Under the pieces are notes generated by a model. That model was not told the DNA's origin, made no database searches, and was given only the letters and a program-made list of their open reading frames with translations. A DNA stretch of 64,000 nt from Luteolibacter flavescens (GTDB lineage: Bacteria > Verrucomicrobiota > Verrucomicrobiia > Verrucomicrobiales > Akkermansiaceae): the NCBI RefSeq assembly GCF_025950085.1, contig NZ_JAPDDS010000003.1:434001-498000 (forward strand). The letters run 5' to 3'. The number at the start of each line of letters is the position of its first letter. Position 1 is the first letter of the stretch. This document shows positions 6,885 through 22,223 of the stretch, one piece after another. A program made the translations under genes and the position numbers.

Positions 6885-7423
6885 GCGCGGGAGAGTTTCG
6901 TTTCGATGCAGTGACGCAGCGCCAGCCGGAGGCGGGAGATCGTCTTCTGCACGCGGGCTGGCTTCATCTGCTGTTCATGCGCATGGCTGGTGAGCGATCC
7001 GCCATCGACGTAGCGCAGGCGCAGCAGCTTCACCTCCTCCGGGGACAGCCGGGAGAGGCAGGAGCGCAGGGCATGCAGGCGCTCGGTGGCGTCCTCGGAG
7101 AGGCTTTCCGCCGCCGTGGAGATTTCGTGCAGCGTGTCCTCGGAGAAGCTCACCGTCTTCTCCCGCTGCTGGTCGCGCCGCCAGGCCATCGCCTTGAACC
7201 ACGCGACCTTGAAGGCCCACGCCTTGAGATTCGTATCGTCGTCACGCTCGTCCCGGCGCTCCCACAGGAAGACGCTGGTCTCCTGCACCACGTCATCGCA
7301 CGCCGCGTGATGAGGCAGGATGCTCATGACGTAGCCACGCAGCGGGACGCGCAAGGCATCGATCTCCGCCGCGAAGGCGGAGTCGTCCTGCGGATCATCC
7401 CGTGGCTCGGCGCGTGACAACAT
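6881..7423 (-). CDS. ECF-type RNA polymerase sigma factor (Rhodopirellula/Verrucomicrobium type)
   Basis: Protein of 180 residues, normal for an ECF sigma factor. Region 2 is visible around residues 35-90 (CDDVVQETSVFLWERRD, LKAWAFKVAWFKAMAWRRD). Region 4 is near the C-terminus (LRSCLSRLSPEEVKLLRLRY, then an HTH ending in KTISRLRLALRHCIETKL). Sigma-70 factors of this group direct polymerase to a small regulon and are usually held by a membrane anti-sigma. The downstream FecR gene overlaps by four bases. The ATG at 7423 lies about 55 nt from the end of argB. Autoregulation of the whole cluster is likely but no promoter motif is evident. Confidence 0.87.
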   Translation of the reverse strand: MLSRAEPRDDPQDDSAFAAEIDALRVPLRGYVMSILPHHAACDDVVQETSVFLWERRDERDDDTNLKAWAFKVAWFKAMAWRRDQQREKTVSFSEDTLHEISTAAESLSEDATERLHALRSCLSRLSPEEVKLLRLRYVDGGSLTSHAHEQQMKPARVQKTISRLRLALRHCIETKLSRA

Positions 7424-7478
7424 CCCGCGGAATGTTCCGCAAAACGGACGATCCTGACGAAAAAATTCCGCTTTTCCC

Positions 7479-8357
7479 TCAGCGCGTCACCTCGGTGCCG
7501 ATTCCGCCGTCGGTGAAGATCTCCAGCAGCAGGGCATGCGGCAGGCGGCCATCGATGAAGTGGACCTTCCGCACGCCCGCATTCAGGGCGTCCACGGCGC
7601 TCTTCACCTTCGGGATCATGCCGCCGGAGATCGTGCCGTCGGCCATGAGATCGTCAGCCTCGGCGCGGCTCACGGACTTGATGAGCGTCTCCGGCTTCGA
7701 GGGGTCCTTCATCAGGCCGGGGACATCGGAGAGATAGACCAGCTTTGCCACGCGCAGCTCCTTCGCGAGGGCGGCGGCGGCGAGGTCGGCATTGATATTG
7801 AGCGGACGGCCGGTGGCGAGCTCCGCCGCGAGCGGCGAGATGACCGGCACGATGCCTGCACGGTGCGCGGCATCCATCTGGCCGAGCTGGCAACCGACCA
7901 CCTCCCCCACCCGGCCGAGATCGACGCGCTCGCCGTCCTTGCCGGTGGCGTGCATCTTCTCACCGAGGAAGACATCCGTGCCAGCGATGCCCACGGCCTT
8001 GCCGCCGAGGTCGCGGATCATGCGGACGAGGCCGGGATTGATCTCGTTCGACAGCACCTTCTCGACGATGGAAATCGCCTGGTCTGACGTGACGCGGAAG
8101 CCGCCGACGAACTCGGCATCGAGCCCCGCGTCCTTCATCGCGGCGGAGATCGCCTTGCCGCCGCCGTGAACGACGATGGGATTGATGCCCGCGACCTCGA
8201 GGAAAACGACATCGCGCATCACTTTCGCGACGAGGTCCGGGTCCTCCATCGCCGAGCCGCCCATCTTGATGAGGAAGGTCTTGCCGCGGAAGGCCTGCAG
8301 GTAGGGCAGGGCTTCGATGAGTGCCTCGGCTTTTTCGATGGGATGCTGGAGGGACAT
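7479..8357 (-). CDS. argB: Acetylglutamate kinase
   Basis: Protein of 292 residues when started at the ATG at 8357 (MSLQHPIEKAEALIEALPYL); an upstream extension in frame is not conserved family sequence. It is an amino acid kinase that phosphorylates N-acetyl-L-glutamate, the second step of arginine synthesis, in the cytoplasm. The nucleotide-binding glycines (FLIKMGGSAM and NPIVVHGGGKAI) are present, as is the substrate-site region NINADLAAAALAKEL and the conserved LTDVPG-like element, here LSDVPGLM. The end (GGIGTEVTR) matches the usual ArgB C-terminus. No other arginine gene is in the window. Its upstream neighbour on the same strand is the CHASE2 gene, ending 46 nt away, so co-transcription is possible. 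Confidence 0.93.
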   Translation of the reverse strand: MSLQHPIEKAEALIEALPYLQAFRGKTFLIKMGGSAMEDPDLVAKVMRDVVFLEVAGINPIVVHGGGKAISAAMKDAGLDAEFVGGFRVTSDQAISIVEKVLSNEINPGLVRMIRDLGGKAVGIAGTDVFLGEKMHATGKDGERVDLGRVGEVVGCQLGQMDAAHRAGIVPVISPLAAELATGRPLNINADLAAAALAKELRVAKLVYLSDVPGLMKDPSKPETLIKSVSRAEADDLMADGTISGGMIPKVKSAVDALNAGVRKVHFIDGRLPHALLLEIFTDGGIGTEVTR

Positions 8358-8403
8358 GGGATCGGTCTTGGTTTTCTGAAATCTGGAATCCGGCAGCGTG
8401 CCG

Positions 8404-10026
8404 TCACGGCGCAGCCTCATCGTCGCCTGCCGCGGACTCTGGCCCGGCCTCATCGGTCGGCCCGGCCTTTCTAGGAGCTGCCTTTTTCGCGGCCTTCTTG
8501 GCAGGCGCTTTCTTCGCGGCCTTTTTCGCCGCGGTCTTGGTGGGAGCTTTTTTCGCGGCCTTCTTGCCCACCTTGCGAGCGGGCTTCAGGGGCTCTTCCA
8601 CGTCTTCTGCGACGGCGGGCACCTCCTCGGGCCATGGCTCATGCTCGACCGGCTGTGGCAGATAGACGGGCTGCGGCGCGGGCCTGACGACCTCCGAGGA
8701 GACCTCGATCACCCGGTCGATGGGAGCCGTGGTCACCGGGATCACAGCGGTCGTGGTCACTGCGGACTGGCGCTTTCTCACGAATGCCAGACCGAAGGCG
8801 GTCACGCCGGGCGAGAGGATGGCCAGCGGCGGAAGCCACAGATTTTGCCGCGAGGCGAAGAGGTAGAGCAATTGCGCCCCGATCCCCGCCAGCATCAGCG
8901 CGGTGATGGCGCGCCATGCCACATTCCGCTGGCAGGTGGCCCAGGTGCCGAAGAAGACCATGCCCAGCATCAGGGCCAGCTCCATGAGCGTGTCCGGACG
9001 TGGCAGCGGGACGGCAGGCTGGAAGCGCTGAGCCTGCCGGAGCGCCTGGACATTGCCAGCGAGCCCGTCCGACCACGCCTTCTCGGCGGCTGGCAGGCCG
9101 GTGCGGACATCGCGCGTGATGAGCGGCAGCGCCAGCGCGGGCAGCGAATTCTTCTCGTAGATGAGCCGCATCGCGGGAGCCTCGACCGTCTGTATGTCCT
9201 TCGCCACCGGACCGCGGCCGAAGCCGTCGATGGGGATGACCTGGCCGTCCCGACCGAGCCGGACCTCGTGGCCCACATCGACCAGCACGTCCTCGGGCTT
9301 CAGGCCCTGTCCGGCGATCTCCACCGCGAGCGGGAAGGAGAAGATCACGCGGTCCCCCCATTGCGCGAGCAGCGGCTGGGTGCCGTCACCGGGGTCCTTC
9401 TCGTTTTCGAGGAGGGAGAATCCTGCCAAGGTCTTTTGGCCGCCGAGCTCGGCATTCGGGATGGAAATGCGGTTCACCTGCGGCAGTGAGGCGACATCTC
9501 CCTTCGCGTCCTTCGCATTGATCGACCAGCGGAGGAAAGGCGCGGCGACCGGTTCCGGTGCGGCACCCCTAGCGAGCGGCAGGGCGATGACCGCGCCATC
9601 GAAGCGGTCGAGCTGCTGGCGCAGCGCGTCCATCGCCAGCGGCTGAGGCTCGTCCCACGCCATCAGGTGGCCGACTCCGAGTGTCTTGTGCCCCACGTCG
9701 GCGAGGCGGGCGAAAATGGTCGCGTGATCGACCGGCGCGAGCGGCGAGGCGCTGAACCAGCGCTCGGGATCCTCGTCGATCGTCAGCATGCGCACCGGCG
9801 GCGGGGTCGCCGGCGGCACGGCCAGACGCCGCGTCCACGGAACCTCTTGGCTGCCCTGACCGTCCACGATGGTGTCCACCGGATCGATCGCGACGGCCAC
9901 CCGCTTCACGATCCACCGCTCCAGCGTGCGCAGCGGTGCGATCAGCGACGCGCCGCCGAGCGCGAACAAGCCCACGCCGAGAAGGATCGCGGCGTGGGTG
10001 AAGGTCCGGCTGGACGGTGTGGTCAC
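8404..10026 (-). CDS. CHASE2-domain membrane protein with a Lys/Ala-rich histone-like tail
   Basis: Protein of 540 residues from a GTG at 10026 that overlaps the stop of the upstream kinase gene in GTGA, which decides the start. It opens with a membrane helix (AAILLGVGLFALGGASLI). Next is an extracytoplasmic domain with CHASE2 hallmarks: VRMLTIDEDPERW, HATIFARLADVGHKTLGV, and near its end VGHEVRLGRDGQVIPIDGFG. Three close membrane helices follow (LMELALMLGMVFFGTW, ITALMLAGIGAQLLYLF, LAILSPGVTAFGLAFV), the usual CHASE2 arrangement. Normally a kinase, cyclase or GGDEF domain comes next. Here only a short linker and about 60 residues rich in Lys, Ala and Pro remain (for example KKAAKKAPTKTAAKKAAKK). 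The protein therefore has a sensor but no enzymatic output. The tail may bind nucleic acid, anionic lipid or a partner; that is inference. Confidence 0.68.
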   Translation of the reverse strand: MTTPSSRTFTHAAILLGVGLFALGGASLIAPLRTLERWIVKRVAVAIDPVDTIVDGQGSQEVPWTRRLAVPPATPPPVRMLTIDEDPERWFSASPLAPVDHATIFARLADVGHKTLGVGHLMAWDEPQPLAMDALRQQLDRFDGAVIALPLARGAAPEPVAAPFLRWSINAKDAKGDVASLPQVNRISIPNAELGGQKTLAGFSLLENEKDPGDGTQPLLAQWGDRVIFSFPLAVEIAGQGLKPEDVLVDVGHEVRLGRDGQVIPIDGFGRGPVAKDIQTVEAPAMRLIYEKNSLPALALPLITRDVRTGLPAAEKAWSDGLAGNVQALRQAQRFQPAVPLPRPDTLMELALMLGMVFFGTWATCQRNVAWRAITALMLAGIGAQLLYLFASRQNLWLPPLAILSPGVTAFGLAFVRKRQSAVTTTAVIPVTTAPIDRVIEVSSEVVRPAPQPVYLPQPVEHEPWPEEVPAVAEDVEEPLKPARKVGKKAAKKAPTKTAAKKAAKKAPAKKAAKKAAPRKAGPTDEAGPESAAGDDEAAP

Positions 10027-10985
10027 GGCGCGAACTCTGTCGCCTTCGCCAGCACGGGCGCGAGGGGTTTTTCCAGCGGGGTTCCTGCTGTCACATGCGC
10101 GAGCATGCGGGCGGCAGGCGCGATGAATTGCAGGTACCAGTCGTCGCCGCGGTTCTTCGCGATATTCCCATATGCACCGAGCGCCTGCATGAGACGCTGG
10201 GCCGCGCACTGGTGGAAGATGGTCGTCTCCGGCCTGTCCTCGGAAATATCCTCCCAGATCGAGAGGATCGCCTCCCGATCCTCCTCCGAGTGGTCCATGT
10301 AGGGATCGAAGACGAGCGACGCGATGTCATACTCCTGGCGGCCACGGCGCATGCCCTGGAAATCGATCCACCAAGCCTTGCCGTCCTTTAGCAGGAGATT
10401 CTGCGACTGGAAATCGCGGTGCACCAGGTGCTTCGCCGAGCTACCGAGGCGTTTCGCCAGGTCCGTGAAGGCTTCGTCTTCCCGCAGCGAGGAAGCGTCC
10501 ATCTCCAGCAGGTCCTCCACGAGGTGGTCGAAGAAATACTCCTGCTCCCAGCGGTAGAGCGCTTCATCGAAGGAAGGCATCAGCTCGAAATCCTTCGGGC
10601 CCTTCGAGTAGAAAAGCTTGTCGATCTGCTGGAGGGCGGAGCGGTAGTAGGGCTCGCGCTCGGAGAAGGGGCGATCCTTCATCGACAGCAGGTCGATGTC
10701 GCCGAGATCCTCGACCAGCGCCACCCGGCGGTGCGGGATATCGAAGAAGATCTCCGGCACATTCAGCTTCGTCGCCTTCAGGAACTTCGCCACCGGCAGG
10801 AAATTGTCGCTGTCAGGCCGCTCGTCGGTCCAGTGGATGCCGATGAAGGGGTCGCGCTCCGGCGTTGCGACGCGCACGATGGTCCGGCCCGACGCGCCTT
10901 TCTTGATCGGCGTCAGGGTCACGGAAACGGTCGGCGCGATCCCGAGGAATTGGCGGGTCGCGTAGAGGATCGAATCGGTCGGCAT
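10023..10985 (-). CDS. APH-family phosphotransferase, AmgK-like (cell-wall sugar kinase candidate)
   Basis: Protein of 320 residues. ATG at 10985 is preferred; a TTG 57 nt upstream (11042) would add 19 residues. The fold is that of aminoglycoside/choline kinases, with the catalytic loop HRDFQSQNLLL and the metal-binding segment WWIDFQGMRRGRQEYDIASL. This combination resembles AmgK, which phosphorylates N-acetylmuramate and N-acetylglucosamine at C1 in peptidoglycan recycling, more than antibiotic kinases. In several bacteria AmgK is encoded beside a nucleotidyltransferase (MurU). Here a nucleotidyltransferase gene lies 11 kb away (21300-22223), and the immediate partner is the CHASE2 membrane protein, coupled by a 4-nt overlap. 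Substrate assignment is inference. Confidence 0.7.
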   Translation of the reverse strand: MPTDSILYATRQFLGIAPTVSVTLTPIKKGASGRTIVRVATPERDPFIGIHWTDERPDSDNFLPVAKFLKATKLNVPEIFFDIPHRRVALVEDLGDIDLLSMKDRPFSEREPYYRSALQQIDKLFYSKGPKDFELMPSFDEALYRWEQEYFFDHLVEDLLEMDASSLREDEAFTDLAKRLGSSAKHLVHRDFQSQNLLLKDGKAWWIDFQGMRRGRQEYDIASLVFDPYMDHSEEDREAILSIWEDISEDRPETTIFHQCAAQRLMQALGAYGNIAKNRGDDWYLQFIAPAARMLAHVTAGTPLEKPLAPVLAKATEFAP

Positions 10986-11114
10986 CGCGGCGCGGAGTTT
11001 TCGGAAGAACTCCCGCGGGACAAGGTGGAAATTTGCGATCAATCCGACCCGCCCGGGTGGTTTTCCATAACAAAGCGAAAAAATGATCCTCTTTGCTGCA
11101 GGTTCGCCGCTGGA

Positions 11115-11525
11115 TCAGAGCGAAGGAATTACGAAAGCTCCGGGAATTCCGAGATCAAGGGTTGCCAGCTCCGCTCCGTTCTTCATGGCCAAAGCCAGCA
11201 AGTGAGCATCCGTGGTTCGGGAGGCCCCGTCACACCAGGAAGGAAAACCTTCCACGGCTGATTGATCATCAGGAAGGAACCCGTGCGAGTCGCCAAGTGA
11301 CCCGATCATCGAACGCAGGGTCTGAACAGCATCCTCCATCGCGAGTCGACCGGCGGCGCGTTGAAGTGAAACCCGGATGAACCCGAGTTCAGGGATCGAG
11401 GAGGTCAGGATACATGCTTCCTCAACCTTCTTCATTGATGCGAGCCAAGCCACGACACGGCGATGCTCGGCATGATCAGCCCACCCCCACGCCACCAATA
11501 CATTGACGTCCAGCAGGTAAGTCAT
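11115..11525 (-). CDS. vapC: PIN-domain toxin of a VapBC module
   Basis: Protein of 136 residues, typical for VapC. The four acidic residues of the PIN nuclease site are visible: D6 in YLLDVNVL, E46 in SSIPELGF, D106 in RTTDAHLL and D124 in ATLDLGI. VapC toxins are Mg-dependent ribonucleases, often cutting tRNA or rRNA, and are neutralised by the partner VapB. The ATG overlaps the stop of the upstream antitoxin gene (ATGA), as expected for a toxin-antitoxin pair. The target RNA cannot be read from sequence. Confidence 0.85.
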   Translation of the reverse strand: MTYLLDVNVLVAWGWADHAEHRRVVAWLASMKKVEEACILTSSIPELGFIRVSLQRAAGRLAMEDAVQTLRSMIGSLGDSHGFLPDDQSAVEGFPSWCDGASRTTDAHLLALAMKNGAELATLDLGIPGAFVIPSL

Positions 11526-11761
11526 GGGAAATCCGAGAGCATCTCACGAACGGATGCAGTGGTGAGCGGCCCCGCGCCCTCCAACGGAGCGAAGATCTCC
11601 GCTCCGGTGAACTCGCAACGGACCTTGCCCACAGGCGTACCGGACACATGTCCCATCGCCCGGCGGCGAAGGAAATCGGACACCGTGATGCCTGCGAGCT
11701 TCGCTTGCTTGCGAATCTCGTGAGCCTCGTCGTCGCTCACTTTGAAACTGAGGGTGGTCAC
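11522..11761 (-). CDS. vapB: VapB-type ribbon-helix-helix antitoxin
   Basis: Protein of 79 residues from a GTG at 11761 (VTTLSFKVSDDEAHEIRKQA). A longer frame from an ATG at 11830 would add 23 residues of non-antitoxin character and would swallow the operator-like repeat, so the GTG is preferred. The N-terminus looks like a ribbon-helix-helix DNA-binding domain (a beta strand TLSFKV, then two helices ending AGITVSDFLRRRAMG). The rest should wrap the toxin. The gene is directly upstream of vapC with a 4-nt overlap. Autorepression through the repeat at 11763-11778 is probable by analogy with other TA modules. Confidence 0.7.
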   Translation of the reverse strand: MTTLSFKVSDDEAHEIRKQAKLAGITVSDFLRRRAMGHVSGTPVGKVRCEFTGAEIFAPLEGAGPLTTASVREMLSDFP

Positions 11762-11762
11762 A

Positions 11763-11778
11763 GGTATTACGGTATTAC
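11763..11778 (-). promoter_or_regulatory. Tandem 8-bp repeat just upstream of vapB, putative operator
   Basis: Two adjacent copies of GGTATTAC (plus-strand orientation) end one base before the GTG of vapB. Repeats immediately upstream of an RHH antitoxin are the usual binding sites for the VapBC complex. The element is AT-richer than its surroundings and could also include the -10 region. Assignment as an operator is by position only. Confidence 0.4.
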
Positions 11779-11905
11779 CGGAATCATGTAATTTCAAGGG
11801 CGACCAGTACGGATCTCCTAAAAGCGACACTTCGGCATCAAAGACTGAAAGATCTTCCTGGCGGTCAGCCTGCCCCTGAAAATCCAGCGAAGATCCACAT
11901 TCCCG

Positions 11906-18418: not shown

Positions 18419-21310
18419 ATGCCGTCCCTCTTTTCTTCCCCCCTCCGGCTTGCGGCCTTTTGCCTAGCGCTGCCTATCACCCCCGCGCTGGCCCAGGTAT
18501 CCTTCGGCCCCTCCATCCCGCTGATCGAAACCATCGGCACCGGCCTCATGTTCACGGCCGGCACGGACATGGACGGCGACGGCGACATCGACGTGCTGGC
18601 GGCGGAACGCTACGGCGTCCGCGTCCTCTGGTGGGAGAATGATGGTACGGGATCATTCTCAAAAGCACGCGAGTGGATCGCGGGCGAATATGACTGGGAA
18701 GTGGTCGGACTGGCCGACCATGACCTAGATGGCAGGCCGGATGTGTGGCTGCAAGATACAGATGAACCGCAGGGACTGCAAAATCCCGTCCGGAAATTTT
18801 ACGTCGCACGAAATGATGGTGAGGGATCATTCGAAAGTCCGAAACTGGTTCTTGAGGATTCGAGAAACTGGCATTGGGCAGAGACGATAATCATCGATAT
18901 GGATGGCAACGGCCGCCCCGACATTCTCACGCCGAACGGGCTGTTTCTCGCGGATGGCAGCGGGGCATTCACTAGTCCGAGCATCGATGTCCCAGCGAGC
19001 GAGTGGGAAGAGCCTGGTGACATGCTATGGGACCAGCGGGAGGGAATCATGCCGGTCGATATCGACGGGGATGGTTTGAAGGACCTGCTGGCGCATAGTT
19101 TCTTCACCTATCAACAGTTCCAATTCTCAAGGAACCTCGGGCCATCGGGCTTCTCCGAATTCATCAACTTGATCCCGGACGACCCCGATGACTCGTTCAC
19201 CGTTTACCACTCCTGCTTTCAGCCAAAGATCGGGGCGAATGCATCCGCACGGATTTTCTTGATCGAGCAAAACGAGGAGACCGGAGCCCAGACCCTCCGC
19301 GTCCGGGACATTTCAGTCGATTTGACGACAACGGAGATCGCCAGCTTGCCACTGCCCGCCGTAGACCCTCACTCATCCATCGACTGGATCGGGCTGACGT
19401 GTGATGCCCGGTCGGGCCGGGTTTTTGTGAGTGCCTATGAATACAGCCCGTCGAGCATACTCACGATGGATCAATCCACCGTCATCCAAGAAGTGACGGT
19501 TGAAGGAAACTCGGTGAATCTGACTCCGATTGGCAGGTATTCCGGGATGGTCACGCCGCTTCCACCGTCGATGCATGACTTGAACGGAGATCTTGTCCCG
19601 GACCTGCTTTTGTCCATGCCCAGCCGGCCCGGGCTGAGTGGAGCTCCTCCAGAGCAGATCACGTGGCATCGGGGCGATGCTGCTGGAGGTGAGGATTGGG
19701 CCCCCCGGGAGATCACGCGAAGCACCATCGATCCGCGGATCATTTCAGTCTTGGATCTGGATGCAGATGGCACCAATGAAGTATTGTTCGGCAGCTCCAG
19801 CGTTCATAGGTCAGGCTTGATCAACCAACTTGAAATCCTGAAGCGGAAAGGGGGTGGCACCGATTTTGAACGGACCATCATCCCCCTGAAAGATGGGAAC
19901 CAGATTCCCCAGCATTACCTCCAAATCGAGGTGATAGCAACAGTGGACCTGGCGGGATCCTATTTGATTCCCATGCCCCTGCCGCACGGGCACACAGTGG
20001 TTTACAGCCTCGGCCGGCCCGACTTTCTCGTACAGACCTATCAAGTCGGTGCTACGGTGTCCTATAACGGCACGCATCGCTTCCAGTGGCTGATTCAAGC
20101 CGACGACGGCAGCTTTCATCTCAAACCACTGACGTCGGAGTCATCAAGTGGCCTGGCGACAGTGGCACATGTCGATTGGGACGGAGACGGCATCAAGGAC
20201 GTCGTCTACCAGATTCCACGTAGCTATGAGAACTCGGGGCTCTTGTGGAGACGCGGAACCGCCTCGGGCTTTGGCGATCCGATCCAGTTGCTCAACGGTT
20301 CTGTCATGGCAACCGTTTGGGGCGTTCATCCGAATAGTGTTATTCGGCCCTCTCCGCTGATCGACTTGGACCGGGATGGAGATTTCGACCTGCTTTTCAA
20401 CGGCAACCTCTTTGGTGGCCTTTCCTCTTACTGGTTTGAGAACGATGGTAACGGTTCGTTTTCATCCATCCGGAAACTCTCGGCTGAGACGCTGTCTATC
20501 ATCCCTGATCTCGACGGAGACGGTCACGCGGATCTCTGCAGCAGCGAGGAAATCCTGCTCACGCGTCCCGGCGTCACATTCGAACGCAGGGCATTTCCTC
20601 TATCGACATTTGTGAAACCTGACGAACCGTTCATGGATCTCGACGGCGACGGCGACCTCGATTTCCTGCACGCCCGCAATCCGGGGTATATCAGTGCATT
20701 CACGGTTCTGGCCTGGCGAGAGAACCAAGGAAACGCCCGGTTTTATCCGAACGGAGGTTACTTCGATGACTTGCCGTTGGCATCCGGGCGCATGGAGTCC
20801 CGCGACCGCGCAGTCACCGGCGACCTGAATGGGGACGGAATCGCAGATCTGATCGTATCCTCCGGAGGCTCACCCCGGCTTGAATGGTTTCCCGCCTCGC
20901 GGATCGCGGAGCCTCCGGCCTTCACCGCGTGGATGGAGGCGAGCGGGCTGACGGGGCACTCCGCCGGACCGCTGGCCGACCGGGATGGAGATGGCATCCC
21001 CAATTGGGACGAGTTTGCCTTTGGCTCGGATGCCGCGGTTTCCGACCCGGGACACGTCGGGCGTCCCCGGATCGAATCGACCGGGGAAGGCCTGTTCTTC
21101 ACCTTCCAGCGCCGCAGCGATGCGAGCGCGACAGGGCTCACCTACGAGCGCCAGCGCAGCACCGATCTGGACGAGTGGCTGCCGTGGACGGGAGACGAGG
21201 CCAGCACTCCTGCCACGGATGGCTACGAGCGGGTCCGCATGCCGGTCCCGGCATCGGAGCCAGGCCGGGAATTCTTCCGGGTGAAGGTGACCGACCCGGT
21301 CAACCCGTGA
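18419..21310 (+). CDS. Secreted FG-GAP/VCBS beta-propeller protein
   Basis: Protein of 963 residues with a good signal peptide (LAAFCLALPITPALAQ). Repeated integrin-alpha-like calcium loops are spread along it: DMDGDGDIDVLAAE, DHDLDGRPDVWLQD, DMDGNGRPDILTPN, DIDGDGLKDLLAHS, DLNGDLVPDLLLS, DWDGDGIKDVVYQ, DRDGDFDLLFN and DLNGDGIADLIVS. These are FG-GAP/VCBS repeats that fold as a propeller and bind Ca. The last 110 residues carry another Asp loop (DRDGDGIPNWDEFAFGSD) and a beta module ending REFFRVKVTDP, resembling the ends of the LamG and subtilase proteins of this window. The stop overlaps the convergent nucleotidyltransferase gene by 11 nt. Likely cell-surface or secreted; ligand unknown. 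Confidence 0.8.
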   Translation: MPSLFSSPLRLAAFCLALPITPALAQVSFGPSIPLIETIGTGLMFTAGTDMDGDGDIDVLAAERYGVRVLWWENDGTGSFSKAREWIAGEYDWEVVGLADHDLDGRPDVWLQDTDEPQGLQNPVRKFYVARNDGEGSFESPKLVLEDSRNWHWAETIIIDMDGNGRPDILTPNGLFLADGSGAFTSPSIDVPASEWEEPGDMLWDQREGIMPVDIDGDGLKDLLAHSFFTYQQFQFSRNLGPSGFSEFINLIPDDPDDSFTVYHSCFQPKIGANASARIFLIEQNEETGAQTLRVRDISVDLTTTEIASLPLPAVDPHSSIDWIGLTCDARSGRVFVSAYEYSPSSILTMDQSTVIQEVTVEGNSVNLTPIGRYSGMVTPLPPSMHDLNGDLVPDLLLSMPSRPGLSGAPPEQITWHRGDAAGGEDWAPREITRSTIDPRIISVLDLDADGTNEVLFGSSSVHRSGLINQLEILKRKGGGTDFERTIIPLKDGNQIPQHYLQIEVIATVDLAGSYLIPMPLPHGHTVVYSLGRPDFLVQTYQVGATVSYNGTHRFQWLIQADDGSFHLKPLTSESSSGLATVAHVDWDGDGIKDVVYQIPRSYENSGLLWRRGTASGFGDPIQLLNGSVMATVWGVHPNSVIRPSPLIDLDRDGDFDLLFNGNLFGGLSSYWFENDGNGSFSSIRKLSAETLSIIPDLDGDGHADLCSSEEILLTRPGVTFERRAFPLSTFVKPDEPFMDLDGDGDLDFLHARNPGYISAFTVLAWRENQGNARFYPNGGYFDDLPLASGRMESRDRAVTGDLNGDGIADLIVSSGGSPRLEWFPASRIAEPPAFTAWMEASGLTGHSAGPLADRDGDGIPNWDEFAFGSDAAVSDPGHVGRPRIESTGEGLFFTFQRRSDASATGLTYERQRSTDLDEWLPWTGDEASTPATDGYERVRMPVPASEPGREFFRVKVTDPVNP

Positions 21311-22223
21311 CGATCCGCGAGTCCACCACTTCCCCTGCCCCGACCTTCGCGCCGGGCCAGATGACCGAGTCGCGGACCACGGCTCCGGCGGCGATTTCCG
21401 CGCGCGGGCCGATGACGCTGCGCGCGATGGTGGCGGCGGGGTCGATGATGGCGTCGGGATGCACCGCGGGTGCGAGGGCCAGATCGCGGTGCGCATCGAG
21501 ATAGGCGGCGGGGTCGCCGAGGTCGGCCCAGTGGCCCTCATCGAGCACGGCAGCGCCGAGGCGGTTTTGCCGGGCGAGCTCGAGGAAGGCGGGGATGACC
21601 GAGATCATCTCGCCCGCCGGGATCATGCCGAGCAGCTCCGGGGTGAAGCAGTAGATGCCGGCGAAAATGTGGGAGCTCTCCGAGCGGCCGAGCCGATGCC
21701 GGATATCGACGACCCGGTCACCCTGGACGGCGATGGCGACGTGCTTCGGATCGCCATGGGAGCGCACGGCGAGCGTGACGGGATTTCCCGAGGCCTCGTG
21801 CGCGGCGATGAGCCGGTCGAGCGCGAGGGATGAAAAGATGTCGCCATTGTGGACGAGGACGCTTTCCCCGGCGGTCCATGCCTCGATGTTCTTCACGCCG
21901 CCGCCCGTCTCGAGCAGCTCAGGCTCGTGGAAGAGGTGGAGCGGGTGGCCCTGCCAGCTTCCCGTCTTCGAAGGCAGGCCATTGCCACCGGGCATCCCCT
22001 CGCCTTTCACGCGGAATTCCCCGCTCGCATCCGTTTCCCACTTCTCCGGCAGGTGGTGGGTATTGATCGCGAAGTCCGTGATCCCGGCGGCGTGGCACGA
22101 GTCCATGGCCCAGGCGATGAGCGGGCGGTGGAAAAGCGGCACCAGCGGCTTTGGCAGCAGGTCGGTCAGCGGGCGCAGACGCGTGCCGAGACCGGCACCG
22201 GGAAGGAAGGCCTTGCGAATCAC
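21300..22223 (-). CDS. Sugar-phosphate nucleotidyltransferase with left-handed beta-helix tail
   Basis: Protein of 307 residues from a GTG at 22223 (VIRKAFLPGAGLGTRLRPLT). A longer open frame upstream is not family-like and overlaps the divergent gene. The NTP-transferase signature G-x-G-x-R-x-x-P-x-T-x(3)-PKP is intact at the N-terminus. Other conserved points are the metal-site HNGDIFSS and GHWADLGDPAAYLDAH near residue 225. The C-terminus has hexapeptide repeats (IIDPAATIARSVIGPRAEIA). The enzyme transfers a nucleotide to a sugar-1-phosphate; mannose-1-phosphate guanylyltransferase or a MurU-like activity are both possible. The AmgK-like kinase at 10-11 kb could supply its substrate. Substrate assignment is inference. 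Confidence 0.75.
   Translation of the reverse strand: MIRKAFLPGAGLGTRLRPLTDLLPKPLVPLFHRPLIAWAMDSCHAAGITDFAINTHHLPEKWETDASGEFRVKGEGMPGGNGLPSKTGSWQGHPLHLFHEPELLETGGGVKNIEAWTAGESVLVHNGDIFSSLALDRLIAAHEASGNPVTLAVRSHGDPKHVAIAVQGDRVVDIRHRLGRSESSHIFAGIYCFTPELLGMIPAGEMISVIPAFLELARQNRLGAAVLDEGHWADLGDPAAYLDAHRDLALAPAVHPDAIIDPAATIARSVIGPRAEIAAGAVVRDSVIWPGAKVGAGEVVDSRIVTG

Follow-up and report, generated by a model that had tools for sequence, protein, structure and literature searches.

The window analysed here is a stretch of 64,000 nucleotides of the Luteolibacter flavescens genome (assembly GCF_025950085.1, contig NZ_JAPDDS010000003.1, positions 434,001 to 498,000; genome G000 of the survey), and it carries on its minus strand the gene for a membrane protein of 540 amino acids that overlaps the gene for a small-molecule kinase. 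The membrane protein is a very divergent relative of the CHASE2 proteins, remote but real. No cytoplasmic output domain was found in it, and output-less proteins of this kind are conserved across the order Verrucomicrobiales. The two genes and the parts of the membrane protein were located at the following positions of the window.

8404..10026 (stop included), minus strand: output-less, divergent CHASE2-family membrane protein, 540 aa, GTG start
9943..10011, minus strand: transmembrane helix 1, residues 6-28 (hydropathy and AlphaFold2/DSSP)
8992..9885, minus strand: predicted extracytoplasmic CHASE2-like alpha/beta domain, residues 48-345 (models; sidedness predicted)
8788..8991, minus strand: transmembrane helices 2-4, residues 346-413 (AlphaFold2 model; the last helix stops here)
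8461..8586, minus strand: Lys/Ala-rich, histone-H1-like tract, residues 481-522, lineage-specific (sequence and tail survey)
10023..10985, minus strand: APH-family small-molecule kinase, AmgK-like, 320 aa (family profiles and catalytic motifs)

Four membrane helices, one N-terminal and three C-terminal, were assigned to the membrane protein by hydropathy and by the AlphaFold2 model, in place of the three counted in a first-pass annotation made from the sequence. The model of residues 1-429 had a mean predicted local distance difference test score (pLDDT) of 89.1 and placed some 300 residues of mixed alpha/beta fold between helix 1 and the C-terminal helices. Its last membrane helix comprised residues 400-413, and pLDDT fell below 50 over residues 419-429, the last of the modelled stretch. 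In the model of a canonical CHASE2 unit the last helix ran continuously from residue 375 to 412, towards the cyclase; such a continuous helix from the membrane into an output domain was absent from the predicted structure of the window protein. CHASE2 is known as the sensing half of one-piece receptors. The cyclase, kinase or GGDEF domain that forms the cytoplasmic output of these receptors was not detected: hmmscan identified no Pfam family in the window protein and so none after the last helix, and NCBIfam gave only compositional matches below cut-off, in the tail. The absence of an output domain, already proposed from the sequence, was thereby borne out. The part beyond the last helix, first put at about 60 residues, was found to be 124-127 residues long, of which 42 form the Lys/Ala tract and the last 18 contain acidic residues and no basic ones.

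Kinship with CHASE2 was recognized by profile-profile comparison, intermediate sequences and predicted folds, and in this respect the first-pass assignment of a CHASE2-like domain stood; by direct Pfam scan it did not. A search with PF05226 (gathering cut-off 26.3 bits), suggested at that stage as a check, returned no match in the window protein or in G000, and Pfam, NCBIfam and PDB sequence searches with the window protein alone revealed no CHASE2. When PF05226 was compared with alignment A1 of the CHASE2-like family, weak matches were obtained in 3 of 38 members, the best at E 2.9e-4. Two profiles were used with hhalign, A2, made from the window's family alone, and A5, an A2-type profile with relatives from other families added. 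A2 aligned with 20 CHASE2 cyclases of related genomes (Prob 97, E 1.2e-10) and with a further 26 canonical CHASE2 units taken from metagenomic contigs (Prob 93, E 2.5e-7), and A5 aligned with the latter at Prob 98 and E 3e-13; controls with unrelated profiles gave Prob 0.05 and 0.08. The gap was bridged by seven output-less relatives of other families in the order, because these matched both the window's family (A2, E 9.1e-31) and PF05226 (all seven at E up to 1, best 5e-8), one of them, L074, reaching 27.4 bits, just above the gathering cut-off. At E 1e-3, four versions of the family hidden Markov model (HMM) recovered 2 to 5 members of the set of 20 canonical proteins and 0 to 12 members of the set of 79; reversed or shuffled canonical sequences gave no hit up to E 0.1, and the kinship was accordingly judged real but remote. 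In a control with neighbouring open reading frames, 37-38 of 246 were matched and were taken as family members from their count and the last six names; with A1 one further frame, L102, was matched at E 0.013.

The order of elements in the canonical unit model (pLDDT 91.7) was largely that of the window-protein model, and secondary structure in the two predicted models agreed at 71% of 242 aligned soluble-domain positions, compared with a shifted-register control in which agreement averaged 35% and never exceeded 45%. Searches of the PDB gave nothing usable with the window model (Foldseek best E 0.22, VIA-align best Z 3.9) and no sequence match to the window family at E 0.001; when canonical CHASE2 cyclases were searched instead, the best stretches lay on the cyclase and membrane part among the 60 listed of 65 PDB sequences matched. 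Profile homology, the helix layout with its predicted sidedness, and the secondary-structure order of the predicted models all agree with membership of the CHASE2 superfamily. Residues W124, D267 and G270 were invariant among 38 sequences of the family.

The family profile was matched (HMM matches) in 185 of the 189 genomes of the order. Among the matches listed, 149 best ones lay in frames of 360-744 aa. Of the remaining 36 genomes, 31 had a matching frame of about 420-525 aa, in many cases together with a second, cyclase-sized one, and five (G040, G092, G106, G157, G162) had short frames only; those of the last four were short or interrupted, some at contig ends. In g17, a genus of family f2, the best A5 match was often cyclase-sized (about 640-790 aa), and a separate frame of about 450-525 aa was taken instead. 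The family was also present in g3 genomes of 2.2-3.5 Mb. The threshold of E 1e-10 was reached by 47 of 240 genomes sampled from the phylum, order members included. Beyond the order, the matches in family f10 (G354, G216) were nearly complete, with frames about 420-435 aa long, and those in f8 and f12 (G211, G266, G340, G272) were partial and fell in 449-548 aa frames; all others lay in larger, cyclase-sized frames. Separately, relatives of the CHASE2 cyclases were frequent on contigs of a viral collection, labelled viral by that collection only, with at least 593 stretches and some contigs above 300 kb. From the best 80 of these loci (L140-L219), 79 frames matched the CHASE2-cyclase profile, and the consensus of 26 viral-collection CHASE2 frames holds the motif NIDExxLxKYGQWPWPR.

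The kinase was matched in 186 of the 189 genomes, and pairing with the CHASE2-like gene was counted over all 183 genomes that matched both profiles. In 68 of them the CHASE2 gene followed the kinase on the same strand at a distance of no more than 500 bases, and in 23 it was one gene's length away, giving 91 of 183 genomes with the pair adjacent or one gene apart. In f1, the family of the window, the kinase was directly upstream in 55 of 57 genomes (exceptions G027 and G121); the pair was adjacent or one gene apart in 22 of 28 f2 genomes outside g17 and within one gene in 8 of 12 f3 genomes. Relatives carrying it include Luteolibacter marinus (L035), Haloferula luteola (L052) and Haloferula sp. 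BvORR071 (L034). The first-pass reading of the junction as GTGA was confirmed: the GTG start of the CHASE2 gene shares 4 nt with the TGA stop of the kinase, and in L001-L011, where the start codons nearest the kinase stop were compared, a GTG stood at the same -4 position. This conservation supports the start assigned to the 540-aa protein. Where an intervening gene was inspected, it belonged to GlgE cluster c4, represented in L092 by a full-length GlgE. In three f2 genomes (L093:4971-6311, L078:4196-5536, L097:6080-7396) a shortened GlgE-like protein of about 440 aa was seen between kinase and CHASE2; that of L093 showed weak matches to GlgE end domains and none to alpha-amylase, and the shortened protein is perhaps a GlgE that has no catalytic domain. 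Six f4 loci (L074, L075, L077, L092, L099, L102) have a gene of cluster c5 directly downstream of CHASE2, the L092 member being an RNase-like beta-CASP metallo-beta-lactamase.

The kinase scored 45.4 bits with PF01636 (APH), above the cut-off of 23.2, and its motifs HRDFQSQN (HRDxxxxN) and IDFQ were intact; H189, R190, D191, N196 and D208 were invariant in 24 sequences. Its best named NCBIfam relative was AmgK (NF045759), at 58.2 bits against an equivalog cut-off of 550, and five other members of the kinase family scored 57-74 bits with this model. AnmK was detected in 0 of 57 genomes, the window genome included, with the control positive in 5 of 14. A nucleotidyltransferase gene, carried by 54 of the 57 genomes, adjoined the kinase or lay close to it in 11 of the 41 loci mapped; in the window it is on the strand of the kinase, roughly 10 kb upstream.

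21300..22223, minus strand: sugar-1-phosphate nucleotidyltransferase (relatives adjoin the kinase in other genomes)

This protein scored 124 bits as a mannose-1-phosphate guanylyltransferase and 93.8 bits as MurU (NF045761, cut-off 250), below the cut-off in both cases. We fairly infer that the kinase would act on a sugar at the anomeric carbon. The earlier description of an AmgK-like kinase was corrected to that of an APH-family kinase with weak AmgK similarity, the AmgK cut-off itself being far off. The label of cell-wall-sugar kinase is unproven for the window kinase, and the peptidoglycan-recycling role ascribed to it was not supported, given the wide miss of the AmgK cut-offs and the AnmK result. 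A maltokinase was also considered and is not favoured for the window: Mak_N_cap occurred in 5 of 57 genomes, none of them in the window's family, and GlgE was absent from the 35 genomes of that family searched.

The tract at residues 481-522 contains 16 Lys and 2 Arg among its 42 residues and no acidic residue. For the tail survey, contig-end-cut sequences, those whose HMM match stopped short of position 395, those with identical last 200 residues and those with more than 330 residues past the match were excluded; the 79 rows minus two cyclases (L055, L058) left 77 output-less homologues, one of them a fragment (L029). A net charge of at least +5 in the last 15 residues was found in 24 of the 77, the other 53 being below this value; the corresponding charge was -5 to -7 in the window protein and in the two relatives nearest to it. 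The Lys/Ala tract was clearest in L001-L006 and, separately, in L106, and was shorter in L038/L039; L095/L096 had Arg-rich ends (RRRRRRRR) that scored +4 and +3. Within g3, 3 of 19 rows reached +5, and most others shared an acidic stretch and a near-neutral end. A weak match of the tract to NCBIfam Rv3852_fam (E 0.085, 13.4 of 100 bits) was below cut-off, Rv3852 being a membrane-anchored DNA-binding protein, and similar compositional matches were obtained to the Lys/Ala-rich ends of the valyl-tRNA ligase and topoisomerase III models. When the same tail was sought in the proteins of G000, G007 and G009, nothing besides this gene and the orthologue in G007 passed at E 0.01; the full-length query gave a weak tail-only match elsewhere in G000. 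Judged by its sequence, the tail is a fast-changing appendage; a charged end recurs among lineages, but the tail is not itself a conserved component of the protein.

The minus-strand gene order in the window is kinase, CHASE2-like gene and argB.

7479..8357, minus strand: argB, acetylglutamate kinase, next gene downstream of the CHASE2 gene (TIGR00761, 206 bits, cut-off 151)

In many f1 loci argB lies 3' of the CHASE2 gene; it was not found downstream in L014, L020 and L041-L044. Neither a sigma-70-like site nor a minus-strand terminator-like site was found at 7300-11200, the argB junction showed no RNA structure (z +0.98), and no plasmid relative was found. A VapC-like gene (PIN-type by eye) and a probable antitoxin gene occupy 11115-11830 on the minus strand, immediately upstream of the kinase, and L003 has a homologue of the VapC-like toxin gene at the same place.

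The layout of the window protein (a helix, an extracytoplasmic domain and three helices, with most strands and helices in the same predicted order) is that of the CHASE2 receptor cyclases, and an IPID-xx-G stretch is common to it and the cyclases P0003 and P0004. It differs from them in having no output, in a last helix that stops at the membrane, in falling below PF05226 detection and in its gene neighbours. According to PMC13001267, the CHASE2-domain receptor cyclases CyaD1, CyaD2 and CyaK of Sinorhizobium meliloti raise cyclic AMP on sensing a plant protein via the outer-membrane protein NsrA; the NsrA case offers a precedent for envelope-side protein partners of CHASE2 domains. With the AmgK/MurU system of MurNAc recycling the locus shares an APH kinase with HRDxxxxN and IDFQ and a nearby nucleotidyltransferase gene (11 of 41 loci), whereas the kinase score (58 versus 550 bits), a nucleotidyltransferase nearer to mannose-1-phosphate guanylyltransferase and the lack of AnmK (0 of 57) set it apart. 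A likeness to loci of GlgE, the alpha-maltose-1-phosphate maltosyltransferase, appears in 9 of the 41 loci mapped, where a GlgE-type c4 gene separates the kinase from CHASE2 or immediately precedes CHASE2; GlgE was, however, absent from all 35 window-family genomes searched, where the kinase and the CHASE2 protein persist. A literature search for a stand-alone CHASE2 protein, or for CHASE2 in Verrucomicrobia, found no description, most subscription journals being outside its coverage, and the accessible text of PMC1592074 and PMC4439547 contains nothing on output-less CHASE2. The abstract of an essential-genome study of Verrucomicrobium spinosum (PMC12283558) reports targeted mutagenesis in that species.

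The reading tentatively preferred, at somewhat short of an even chance, is that of an envelope-side ligand-binding membrane protein that acts in trans, with the kinase as its leading candidate partner. The CHASE2 domain would bind an envelope glycan, a lipid-linked sugar or a protein partner, and the three-helix bundle would pass the binding state to a cytosolic partner or hold that partner. The co-encoded kinase, and through it the supply of sugar-1-phosphate and nucleotide sugar, would be the leading candidate. The C-terminal tail would be a disordered appendage, not a signalling output, its positive end in some lineages possibly making contact with the membrane or a polyanion. A regulatory link between the kinase and the CHASE2 protein is suggested by gene order. 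Split CHASE2 signalling, with a receptor that has no output domain controlling the cytosolic sugar kinase that the overlapping gene encodes, is considered doubtful. Several results weigh against the preferred reading. The pair was not within one gene in 92 of the 183 genomes (87 with different contigs, 3 with opposite strands, 2 far apart), part of the 87 perhaps being assembly breaks, and contig ends can hide a neighbour; of ten f4 rows checked against contig ends, seven were clearly apart and three undecided. Only 6 of 55 f4 genomes, 0 of 27 in g17 and 0 of 4 in f5 and f6 had the pair within one gene, and the splits in f4 and g17 argue that the CHASE2 protein, kept there with no neighbouring kinase gene, also works without one. 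The proposed kinase-CHASE2 module held near-strictly in f1 and not order-wide. The kind of homologue named at first pass as refuting it, unpaired and lacking the basic tail, was found in G027 (L025/L085): its 8.5-kb stretch has no kinase match, and its tail comprises 21 residues with a net charge of -3 over the final 15. Co-occurrence is uninformative because both families are near-universal. The mean column identity of the CHASE2 core was 42% (20 sequences), compared with 66% for the kinase (17 sequences), and a loosely constrained surface role thus fits as well as sensing. The window protein itself missed the PF05226 cut-off, and of the canonical proteins the A2 HMM alone matched, at E 1e-3, just 2 in the set of 20 and none in the set of 79. 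Finally, with 24 of 77 homologues reaching +5, the basic tail could not be upheld as a conserved part of a module.

A close rival, itself quite possible, is an autonomous core envelope protein in which the CHASE2 fold does a stand-alone job, such as assembly, anchoring or maturation, and the proximity of the kinase gene is inherited operon order with no functional contact behind it. Retention in 185 of 189 genomes, though half of those compared have no pair within one gene, agrees with this, as do its presence in the 2.2-3.5 Mb g3 genomes and the c5 gene downstream in six f4 loci, one member being a beta-CASP metallo-beta-lactamase; near-strict adjacency in f1, adjacent or one-gene spacing in four families (f1-f4) and the 4-nt overlap in L001-L011 speak instead for a tie to the kinase. 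The paired share was 77 of 132 in a subset drawn from 150 kinase and 149 CHASE2 positions and is lower in the full 183 because g17 is split throughout, which slightly reduces the weight of the kinase-partner and split-signalling readings and raises that of the autonomous role. It is improbable that the protein is a chromatin- or RNA-binding anchor whose H1-like tail would hold nucleic acid or ribosomes at the membrane. The 42-residue tract, the positive ends that recur in separate lineages (Lys/Ala in L106, Arg in the somewhat lower-scoring L095/L096) and the weak Rv3852_fam match would suit such an anchor, but that match stands beside comparable compositional ones, most homologues and most g3 rows stay below +5, and the window protein and its nearest relatives end acidic. 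Least credible, and very improbable, is a decaying remnant of a CHASE2 cyclase or kinase that has lost its output. The missing output and long helix, the fast sequence evolution and the short or interrupted frames to which matches are confined in G092, G106, G157 and G162 could be taken as decay, but open frames of similar core length occur across the order, three residues are invariant, and the near-universal, order-wide retention argues against neutral drift of this kind.

That a CHASE2 unit lacking both the output and the long coupling helix is near-universal suggests that selection can keep the extracytoplasmic domain and the three-helix bundle for their own sake. The output-less protein offers a clean system for questions of CHASE2 ligands and of transmission through the bundle, and it draws attention to an envelope gene, as yet uncharacterised, that almost all genomes surveyed in the order carry. 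If the split system were true, envelope status would set the supply of sugar-1-phosphate, the output being a metabolic enzyme held non-covalently, and such a system would be present throughout an order that we infer to include the gut genus Akkermansia.

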